NCBI GenBank assembly: GCA_015232405.1
Contig: JADFZS010000008.1
Span: 1 to 64,000 of the forward strand
Source of the DNA: Magnetococcales bacterium
Lineage (GTDB): Bacteria; Pseudomonadota; Magnetococcia; Magnetococcales; JADFYX01
Direction of reading: 5' to 3'
DNA length: 64,000 nt
Both the position numbers and the translations under genes were made by a program. The notes below the pieces were generated by a model, which saw nothing but the letters and a program-made list of their open reading frames with translations, had not been told where the DNA came from and did not search any database. Positions 11,735 to 15,093 of the stretch are shown one piece after another. Every line of letters begins with the position of its first letter. Position 1 is the stretch's first letter.

Positions 11735-13156
11735 TTACCCCTGTTTGCTAGCCGATCTTTTGCGCAAACGGTTGTTTAAAGTCTGGCGGGTTATACCAAG
11801 GAGACTGGCGGCAAGTGTCTTGTTACCGTCAGAGCGCTGAATTGCAGCTTCAATCAATATATGTTCAGCCTCTTCAAAGGTTGGCAGACGTCCAGAAAAA
11901 GCCAAAAATGGGTTTTCATCTGTTATGGGAATAGCTGTATCCAAGGAGTTTTTTGCCAATACAATATCTTGAAAACTCTTAAGGCTCAAACTACCAGACT
12001 CATGCATTGCCACCCCATCAAATATCATTGCTCGCAACTCTCTGATGTTACCGGGAAAGTCATAAGCATTTAACAGTTGAAAAAGCTCTGGAGGTAGGTT
12101 GGGAGCACTCTTGCCCATAGATTTAGCGGCATCATTGATAAAACGGTTGGCAAGTAAAATTATATCTTCCCTCCTCTCTCTGAGTGGTGGGATGATTATT
12201 TGATGGGCCGAAAGACGAAAATAGAGATCAGCCCTAAATTTATTGGCTAACATCAACTCTTTTAGGTTTTTATTTGTTGCACATATTATTCTGGCATCGG
12301 TACCAATAGCACCATCTGCACCAAGGGGGTAGTATCGTCTCTCCTGTAGCAAGCGTAACAGTTTTATCTGGGATGACTCTTTTAAATCGCCAATTTCATC
12401 GAGAAAAAGTGTACCCTTTGCCGCTTTGGAAATTAACCCTTCACGGTTTAATTCGGCACCGGAAAAAGCCCCTTTGCGATGGCCAAAAAGGGTATCAGAA
12501 AACATGGTGTCGTCAAGTCCAGCGACATTTAGCGGCACCAAATCCCCTTTGCGATTACTCACCTTATGTAGAGCCTCAACCAGAAGCTCCTTACCAACCC
12601 CGGTCTCCCCTATAACCAGGACAGGTTCGTTGGAGTTGGCTATAGCCTCACCATAACGAAATATTGTCTGCATTTTTCTGCTACGGGTGATAATACGATC
12701 AAAAGCCGAGACATTTTGTGCAGTTTCGGAAAAAAGAACCTCTTTTAACAGCCCAACTTCACTGCGTAGACTTCTTAGCTCCAAAGCCCGTTTGACACAG
12801 GAGATAAAACGACTGTTCTCCACAGGTTTCAACATATAGTCAAAAGCACCTGCCTTCATACACTCAACAGCCCTGTTGAGATCATGGGTAGCCGTCATGA
12901 CAACCACGGGTATTTCAGGAAAACGTTGGGTTAGCTGGGGCAGAAGCTCGATTCCTGTGATATTGGGCATCATTAGATCAAGAATGATCATTGCCCCACT
13001 GAACTCTTCTAAAAATGGTATCAGTTTTCTGCCATCCTGCATGGTCTCAACCGGACCAAAGCCAGCAAAACTCAGCTGGGTTCGGGAACTAAAAAGTATC
13101 TCCTCCTCATCATCAACAAGGATAATAGGAAGGTTTTTTTTGTTAGTTGAATCCAT
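11735..13156 (-). CDS. Sigma-54-dependent response regulator (NtrC family)
   Basis: 473 residues: receiver (D60 in ILDLMMP), AAA+ ATPase with Walker A GETGVGKE at 183-190 and the sigma-54 contact loop GAFSGA at 229-234, and a C-terminal Fis-type helix-turn-helix (GITRQTLNNRL). Proteins of this kind bind enhancer sites and use ATP to open sigma-54 promoters when phosphorylated. The loop has serine instead of the usual threonine of GAFTGA, a mild change. The gene follows, on the same strand, a soluble kinase (15093 to 13513) of the type that commonly partners NtrC-like regulators; the 356-base gap between them carries a long hairpin element. Start ATG 13156 has only a modest GGGA upstream. Confidence 0.93.
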   Translation of the reverse strand: MDSTNKKNLPIILVDDEEEILFSSRTQLSFAGFGPVETMQDGRKLIPFLEEFSGAMIILDLMMPNITGIELLPQLTQRFPEIPVVVMTATHDLNRAVECMKAGAFDYMLKPVENSRFISCVKRALELRSLRSEVGLLKEVLFSETAQNVSAFDRIITRSRKMQTIFRYGEAIANSNEPVLVIGETGVGKELLVEALHKVSNRKGDLVPLNVAGLDDTMFSDTLFGHRKGAFSGAELNREGLISKAAKGTLFLDEIGDLKESSQIKLLRLLQERRYYPLGADGAIGTDARIICATNKNLKELMLANKFRADLYFRLSAHQIIIPPLRERREDIILLANRFINDAAKSMGKSAPNLPPELFQLLNAYDFPGNIRELRAMIFDGVAMHESGSLSLKSFQDIVLAKNSLDTAIPITDENPFLAFSGRLPTFEEAEHILIEAAIQRSDGNKTLAASLLGITRQTLNNRLRKRSASKQG

Positions 13157-13259
13157 TGTTGAATCCCATAGTTCATATCTAGAGAGTTAAGCAACCACAC
13201 GACAAAAAAGAGCTGCATTACCCAGCATAACTACTGTAAATCCATAACCAAAAACGATA

Positions 13260-13426
13260 ATCCTAGAAACAGCAGTTGTCAGCACGCACCTGACGCAACC
13301 TATTGATTCATCTGGCATAACAGATCAAAGTCTCATCACCAACAAGGTGACTTCGATTTGCTCTGTTACACCAGCTAAACCAATATGTTACGCCATGTAC
13401 GCACCGCCAACCGCCGTTTCTAGGAT
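13260..13426 (-). ncRNA. Candidate structured RNA element bounded by 30-base inverted repeats
   Basis: Arms 13260-13289 and 13397-13426 can pair over 30 positions. On the minus strand this is 23 Watson-Crick pairs, 6 G.U and 1 mismatch; on the plus strand the six wobbles become A.C mismatches. Inside, 13313-13322 pairs with 13386-13395 (10 bp with one G.U on the minus strand), and a hairpin TCACC/GGTGA sits at about 13330-13348. The segment TCTGTTAT near 13317-13325 can pair instead with a second partner near 13365-13372, so mutually exclusive folds exist. It lies between the kinase stop (13513) and the regulator start (13156), in the probable transcript of both. It could be a leader RNA controlling the regulator gene, an RNA-stabilising element, or a decayed miniature transposon. 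The rest of the 13157-13512 gap shows nothing else. Confidence 0.5.
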
Positions 13427-13512
13427 AATGACAGGAATAGACGGTATTAAACCATATATATCAACAAATTTCACTATACAGTTATCTATGGCCTATAAAT
13501 TTTATTTAATCG

Positions 13513-15093
13513 TCAGCTTTTATTTATTGGTAGTTGCACAGTTACCGTAGTCCCTTTATCAAGCTCTGATTCAAATGTGATGTGGCCACCATGGTTGTTT
13601 ATAATGGTATTGGAGATAGATAGTCCTAGCCCTGTTCCCCCAACATCGGTTCTGGTAGTAAAAAAAGGATCGGTCAATAGTTTCAAATCCTTTTCACATA
13701 TTCCCTTACCATCATCTGTGACACTAACCAAAACAGCATTGGTATTGCTGTCTTGTGATATTGATACTGTGACATTGCCATCTCGACTACCCAAAGCCTG
13801 TAGGGCATTGAGAATCAAATTTATAAAAACCTGCTCTAACTGTTGGGTATTTCCCAACACCATCGGTAGAGATTCAGCCGCTTCACTGGAAAAATTATTG
13901 CAATATTTTTTTATCTGGCTTTGCAGAATAGAGATTGAGTCATTTATGATGGTGGTCAGGTTTACCTCCTGATCCAACACCCCCTTATCTTGACGACTTA
14001 AATGTTTTAGATTTTGGATGATATTTTGAATCCGTAACGAGCTTTTTTTAATGCCGTCAAACAGGCGTGGCATGGTATCCAACACATCAGATATGGGGAC
14101 ACCAGCAAGGAGAAAATCCCCCTCTTCACGCCTTGCTCTCTCTAAAAATGGCACCGCATCCCCCCAAACATCGTGCAACATGGCGGTGTTGAATTGAATC
14201 GAATTATTGGGGTTGTTCACCTCATGGGCAACACCTGCTGCCAACACACCAATGGTAGCCAACTGTCCAAAACGGATACTCTGCTGCTGCAATATGACCC
14301 TCTCTTCATCAACTTGACGACGTTGGGTAATATCACGAACAATAGCTGAAAAACGTGGAGTTCCTTTTACACTCCATGTGGATAGAGATAACTCTACAGG
14401 AAAAATCACCCCTCCCTTTTTTAGCCCATGCAGCTCTTTAACACAGCTTTTTGTAACCTGGTTATCAATCTCCATACAGTGGCGCAACTCAATTTTCAAT
14501 GCCTCCCACTCTTGTTCTGGTACTAAATTTTTAACAGGCTGCCCGATGATCTCCTCTTTGGTGTAGCCAAATGTCTTATGCGCGCTATTGTTCCATACTG
14601 TAACCAAACCATTTTCATCTGTGGCTATAATGGCATCTGAAGCTGATTCACTAATGGATCGAAACTGCTCTTCACTATTCCGTAAAGCCTCCTCTGCCAC
14701 TTTACGTTTTTTATACTCCTCTGCCTCCATAAAACATCGCTCTATGGTTGGCAATAAACTGCTGAGATTATCTTTATGGACAAAATCTTTCGCTCCAGAT
14801 TTTAGGAGTGATACCGCCTCCTCTTCACCTATAGCACCGGAGACCAAAATAAATGGACTTTCCAAATCATGCTCATTGTAAATTTTTAACGCTGCCTGGG
14901 CAGAGAAAAGTGGCATTCGACAGTCAGAGATAAACAGGTCCCATCTTGTCTGGCTCAACGCTTGGACCATCTCAGGTTCAGACTCAATTCGCTGGCACTT
15001 CACATCAACATAACCTTTACGAAGTATGTGATGCAGCAATTGAAAATCTTTTTTGGAATCATCAATAATGAGAATATGGAGCTTTTTTCTCAT
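13513..15093 (-). CDS. Soluble sensor kinase REC-PAS-HisKA-HATPase
   Basis: 526 residues, no membrane segment. An N-terminal receiver (D57 in ISDCRMP), a linker helix, one PAS domain (about 150-275), a HisKA domain with the box GVAHEVNNP and an HATPase with DDGKGI and GGTGLGLS. Kinases with this H-box often drive NtrC-type regulators, and one is encoded next on the same strand. An N-terminal receiver on a kinase usually means that the kinase is itself controlled by another phosphodonor. Ribosome site GAGGAATAG precedes ATG 15093. The pairing with the downstream regulator is inferred from position and subfamily. Confidence 0.92.
   Translation of the reverse strand: MRKKLHILIIDDSKKDFQLLHHILRKGYVDVKCQRIESEPEMVQALSQTRWDLFISDCRMPLFSAQAALKIYNEHDLESPFILVSGAIGEEEAVSLLKSGAKDFVHKDNLSSLLPTIERCFMEAEEYKKRKVAEEALRNSEEQFRSISESASDAIIATDENGLVTVWNNSAHKTFGYTKEEIIGQPVKNLVPEQEWEALKIELRHCMEIDNQVTKSCVKELHGLKKGGVIFPVELSLSTWSVKGTPRFSAIVRDITQRRQVDEERVILQQQSIRFGQLATIGVLAAGVAHEVNNPNNSIQFNTAMLHDVWGDAVPFLERARREEGDFLLAGVPISDVLDTMPRLFDGIKKSSLRIQNIIQNLKHLSRQDKGVLDQEVNLTTIINDSISILQSQIKKYCNNFSSEAAESLPMVLGNTQQLEQVFINLILNALQALGSRDGNVTVSISQDSNTNAVLVSVTDDGKGICEKDLKLLTDPFFTTRTDVGGTGLGLSISNTIINNHGGHITFESELDKGTTVTVQLPINKS

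Follow-up and report, generated by a model that had tools for sequence, protein, structure and literature searches.

Does the long palindrome that separates a kinase gene from a sigma-54 regulator gene in this Magnetococcales bacterium serve the regulator as a leader RNA, or does it have a life of its own? The window is the whole 64,000-nt stretch of contig JADFZS010000008.1 that was analysed, and its first-pass annotation described a 167-base element at 13260-13426 as a possible regulatory RNA in the leader of the regulator. On the minus strand, the arms of that element (13260-13289 and 13397-13426) do pair, at 29 of 30 positions; six of these pairs are G.U and become A.C mismatches on the plus strand. 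The hairpin is real. Its limits are narrower than the annotation placed them: the element covers 13262-13424 (163 bp), and the two outermost bases on either side are part of a target duplication of 5 bp, ATAAT, which matches perfectly on both sides. The features of the locus are as follows.

13262-13424, minus strand (the folding strand): palindromic non-autonomous element (MITE), 163 bp, its ends placed where about 100 aligned copies and their target duplications put them; covariance-model score 178.7 bits on the minus strand and 93.8 bits on the plus strand
13257-13261, no strand: left 5-bp target-site duplication, ATAAT, read from the sequence
13425-13429, no strand: right 5-bp target-site duplication, ATAAT, read from the sequence
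13262-13278, no strand: left terminal inverted repeat of 17 bp, CCTAGAAACAGCAGTTG, which is conserved between lineages and covaries among them
13408-13424, no strand: right terminal inverted repeat of 17 bp, CAACCGCCGTTTCTAGG, which is conserved between lineages and covaries among them
13279/13407, 13290/13396, 13300/13386 and the less constant 13311/13375, within 13279-13407, minus strand: conserved single mismatches, mostly G.A on this strand, spaced by 11, 10 and 11
13330-13356, minus strand: internal loop and conserved apical stem-loop (CACC-UUGUU-GGUG on this strand), near-invariant in alignment columns 75-90
11735-13156, minus strand: flanking host gene outside the element, receiver-sigma54-activator-Fis regulator
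13513-15093, minus strand: flanking host gene outside the element, receiver-PAS-histidine kinase

By its mode of spread, the feature is a recently mobile, non-autonomous MITE. It is 163 bp long without transposase coding capacity, has 17-bp terminal repeats inside an end-to-end palindrome, and occurs as many dispersed copies with target duplications on their flanks. In particular, the aligned copies end sharply at CCTAGAAAC...GTTTCTAGG, with CCTAGAAAC as the inverted repeats, and these repeats covary between lineages (AAAC/GTTT, ATTC/GAAT and ATCC/GGAT). A BLAST search of the window's genome found about 40 copies with 86-99% identity, and a covariance model made for the element found at least 60, a lower bound since 60 was also the number of candidates scored. 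Identical 5-mers flank 64 of 104 copies on both sides, rising to 83 of 104 with at most one mismatch; TTAAA, TTTAA, ATAAT, ATAAA and ATTAT are the commonest duplicated 5-mers among these 104. The amplification is recent, as the 32 closest copies differ from their own consensus by only 1 to 7 bases.

Further, four congeners contain 26 to 60 copies each according to the covariance model, and those detectable by BLAST mostly have 69-86% identity. The element is also present in members of several further Magnetococcales families, some of which have single weak matches. Outside the Magnetococcales, 16 genomes of one family (f18, genomes of 1.2-2.9 Mb) are the sole other carriers among 398 genomes drawn from the phylum. 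Among the copies fetched, the length is 160-164 bp everywhere, with f18 members mostly at 162 bp. Plasmid and phage collections gave no match to the element, and pattern matches in viral contigs contained no element when scored by the covariance model.

These copies decide the question of the leader RNA. The first-pass annotation had named dispersed copies with target duplications, the signature of a MITE, as the finding that would overturn its proposal, and the search of the genome found exactly these: about 60 copies with 5-bp duplications, unrelated neighbours and no orientation preference. A leader RNA would be tied to one gene family; here, copies lie beside unrelated genes in both orientations. 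Across 75 placed copies, both neighbours are on the minus strand in 28 cases and both on the plus strand in 26, with 13 convergent, 6 divergent and 2 inside genes. The element does not serve the sigma-54 regulator as a dedicated leader. It is true that the minus strand is the sense strand for both genes flanking the window copy, and that other MITEs (Correia, ERIC) alter mRNA stability once transcribed (PMC10969869). An incidental effect on the regulator's mRNA is possible; as an account of the hairpin itself, a host regulatory RNA is very improbable. No internal promoter signal beyond chance was present in the element, and no Rfam family scored above threshold. The best Rfam matches were microRNA precursor models, which reward any long imperfect hairpin (MIR6140 scored 39.9 bits on the minus strand of 13262-13424, with a threshold of 140).

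The structural part of the annotation fared better. Folding the minus strand yields one hairpin across the whole 163-167 nt, far beyond chance: the RNA folding energy is -103.8 kcal/mol on the minus strand (z = -15.0) vs -55.7 kcal/mol on the plus strand (z = -6.9), and DNA parameters give -50 and -25.5, respectively. When free to choose its structure, RNAalifold finds a consensus of 54 pairs at -61.9 kcal/mol on the minus strand and of 27 pairs at -10.1 kcal/mol on the plus strand. In a given structure, 87.8% of pairs across 42 sequences are standard on the minus strand, compared to 74.2% on the plus strand. The same 42 sequences have 35 pairs with changes on both sides, and none of 500 shuffles reached the observed covariation. 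Structure thus resides in the minus strand, whose pairing is conserved with compensatory changes throughout. The conserved mismatches fall at element pairs 18/146, 29/135, 39/125 and 50/114, of which the first three are purine-purine (G.A) on the minus strand and 10-11 bases apart.

The annotation had also argued that six of six wobble pairs favouring one strand is a roughly 1 in 32 outcome of random decay. For a single sequence this argument is weak; the asymmetry itself was found in every multi-copy subfamily examined. Among 81 copies without gaps, G.U pairs of the minus strand outnumber G.U pairs of the plus strand by about 12 to 2, in every genome. Near-independent subfamily contrasts contain 68 single changes from Watson-Crick pairs to G.U on the minus strand and 16 to G.U on the plus strand (p = 8.5e-9), while 32 of their 66 double changes lead from one Watson-Crick pair to another. 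Lineage contrasts over 158 copies in 58 clusters, f18 included, gave 151 vs 53. The main copy set was oriented by similarity to the window copy, independently of folding, and this orientation agrees with the letters of the apical loop in 150 of the 158 copies (f18 included); the exceptions all come from one genome (G003) with a different loop. The strand asymmetry is therefore real, and it is conserved over the Magnetococcales and one further family.

Selection on a peptide could in principle produce such a bias, if the plus strand were an in-frame insert whose mRNA hairpin is weakened by A.C mismatches, as in the Rickettsia palindromic elements. Plus frame 2 is open in 65 of 81 copies, the element and its duplication (163+5 = 168 bp) add exactly 56 codons, and the two intragenic copies, in GluQRS and in a NirA-like gene, are both in plus frame 2. 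Set against this, only 2 of the 75 placed copies are inside genes, and the excess of silent changes is not significant (z = 1.1). The 162-bp members of f18 have a broken reading frame and the same G.U asymmetry, so coding is not its cause; we give this explanation hardly any credence.

The bias could also have a mutational origin. A strand that folded while being replicated or transcribed could accumulate G.T pairs without any function, either by correction templated on its hairpin or by deamination that favours one strand. The private changes of young copies from Watson-Crick pairs lean in the same direction (G.U-minus 30 vs G.U-plus 15, p = 0.036), leaving some mutational bias possible, and deletion derivatives of 48-55 bp suggest that DNA hairpins do form. 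A purely mutational asymmetry, however, should show in fresh mutations too, and their lean is far weaker than that of the amplified lineages: in clusters of at least 5 copies, the consensuses of amplified subfamilies have 66 G.U-minus vs 1 G.U-plus pairs (Fisher p = 2.5e-6 against 30:15), where shared ancestry of the consensuses makes 66:1 an overstatement of the number of independent events. The youngest 32 copies have no strand bias of transitions (13 G>A and T>C vs 12 A>G and C>T), and orientation with respect to genes and GC skew is random. We consider a mutational origin quite unlikely, and the best reading of the comparison is that the lineages that amplified kept their minus strand foldable.

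Neither duplex DNA nor a cruciform distinguishes the two strands, and the difference must therefore be felt by a single strand, whether as RNA or as ssDNA. If the role lay in neighbouring host genes, an orientation bias would be expected; none was found, which places the role probably in the element's own propagation or in an inheritance from a parent. The GC skew in the element's orientation, a weak proxy for replication direction, averages near zero without bias (p = 0.08). Overall, selection seems to act on a folded single strand during the element's own spread. As the folded form, RNA is slightly favoured over ssDNA, because abundant G.U pairs, G.A mismatches, and a conserved internal loop with an apical stem-loop are typical of RNA.

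The explanation that we lean toward, with slightly better than even confidence, is a recently mobile MITE whose minus strand must fold at a single-stranded stage of its own propagation, with no dedicated role in a sigma-54 leader. A transposase acting in trans would recognise the CCTAG... inverted repeats and would make 5-bp staggered cuts, giving rise to the duplications observed. At some single-stranded stage of propagation, the minus strand would then fold into a nearly unbroken hairpin, a requirement suggested by the multiplied lineages, which keep G.U but not A.C in the minus strand. Several considerations count against this explanation. Terminal repeats together with duplications of a constant 5 bp point to a DDE mechanism that works on double-stranded DNA and has no single-stranded stage, and template switching can also be a source of paired changes in DNA palindromes. 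The lean of the young copies, the shared ancestry of the consensuses and the lack of a GC-skew bias weigh on the same side. A bolder version, in which the element spreads via a folded single strand of fixed polarity (a minus RNA or an ssDNA hairpin) that an enzyme recognises, despite its DDE-type 5-bp duplications, is unlikely; to our knowledge, no such transposition route has been described for MITEs with terminal inverted repeats.

Alternatively, the hairpin may be the legacy of an unseen autonomous parent, for example the leader of its transposase mRNA, with the MITE repeatedly re-derived from or converted by that parent. End hairpins are known to protect IS10 and IS50 from read-through. 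A constraint on one strand would be natural for an mRNA leader, and MITEs usually derive from IS elements (PMC10969869). The search for a parent argues otherwise. The assemblies searched, among them a 98% complete genome with many copies, yielded no autonomous element with these ends, and the two candidates that did turn up were unrelated IS elements that had inserted into copies of the MITE. Among the matches listed, no other terminal-repeat pairs 1-3 kb apart held up, a result that does not extend to one 2.75-kb pair (G202:C79:9336-12086). Absence of the parent is not proof, since genome binning often loses the contigs of multi-copy IS elements; the length of 160-164 bp everywhere also speaks against repeated fresh deletions. 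A parental legacy is rather unlikely.

IS elements nested in palindrome copies can masquerade as the parent of a MITE. A 1626-bp unit (L319/L320; G161:C3:49941-51566) has both terminal repeats and a DDE_5 transposase and was first taken for the parent; other copies of this IS701/DDE_5-like IS start at CAATACCTTCGCC, its ends, in unrelated flanks. Similarly, a DDE_Tnp_1 IS in G002 (L038/L156) has a 3' flank matching half of the element, and its relatives end at GGAAACTTCAG, which identifies it as an insertion in a MITE copy; at L156:1-727 (G002:C460), the nested IS has the ends CTGAAGTTTCC. The IS1380 family, whose ISEcp1 has ends CCTAGATTCTACGT and 5-bp duplications, resembles the element in the first bases of its ends and in its AT-rich 5-bp duplication. 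The IS1380 element in the window's genome, however, has the ends CCCGGATATTTCATGAA and not those of the MITE; no IS1380 copies carrying the MITE's ends were found in the assemblies searched. This locus (L031; G000:C205:1094-2359) contains a gene for an IS1380-type transposase (PF13701) that is almost complete and has a single in-frame TGA; the apparent ends of the element are CCCGGATATTTCATGAA.

Palindromic MITEs are commonly regarded as duplex DNA, with the hairpin as a by-product. The bacterial MITEs ERIC, Correia/NEMIS and the Coxiella QMITE are short, non-autonomous and mostly intergenic, with inverted repeats, target duplications and a long RNA stem-loop (PMC10969869). The present element likewise is a short, non-autonomous, whole-length palindrome with target duplications and a foldable RNA; it differs from them in its sequence, in its near-exact length across families, and in the conservation of pairing on one strand through a G.U/A.C asymmetry, for which no report on these three was found in the literature searched. 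Rickettsia palindromic elements are palindromes of about 150 bp with an open frame in one direction and in-frame insertions in housekeeping genes (PMC10969869). Size, one-directional frame and in-frame insertions are shared with our element; frequent insertion in genes is not (2 of 75 placed copies), f18 has no frame, and the transposition signature is clear. REPINs with RAYT, and IS200/IS605-type elements, have hairpins with compensatory changes, and they are believed to move as single strands (PMC3116915). The compensatory hairpin and the idea that a folded single strand matters are common to both; unlike REPINs, which are REP doublets linked to RAYT, a Y1 transposase, and lack target duplications, our element has a 5-bp duplication and DDE-like terminal repeats.

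A survey of bacterial stem-loop families found that both strands usually share foldability except where G.U pairing is essential (PMC2267715), and the present element is such an exception. Strand-specific conservation combined with 5-bp target duplications sets it apart, and this conservation is the part of the observation worth following: a difference visible only to a single strand has been kept over an order and a further family, and it is much stronger in multiplied lineages than in fresh mutations. The element thus offers a clean way to test whether folding as RNA or ssDNA plays a part in how bacterial MITEs live, and the ratio of G.U to A.C is simple enough to be computed for any other MITE family.

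Several individual copies are of separate interest. The in-frame copy in the NirA/sulfite-reductase-like gene of the window's genome (L009:1505-1667; G000:C111:28390-28552) adds 56 codons at about amino acid 502 of the open frame, before the C-terminal region, and the one in the tRNA glutamyl-Q(34) synthetase gene GluQRS (L056:301-463; G002:C411:5838-6000) adds the same number after about residue 131 of the open frame. Miniature versions of 48-55 bp that retain both ends and have target duplications occur at L170:722-769, L339:806-860, G000:C5:8656-8703 and similar places; the 48-bp version resembles the product of a deletion across the hairpin, between direct repeats of ACGCACC. Finally, a 57-bp shortened copy (L029:1442-1498) directly adjoins a full copy at 1505-1667, and this arrangement suggests repeated insertion at the same site.
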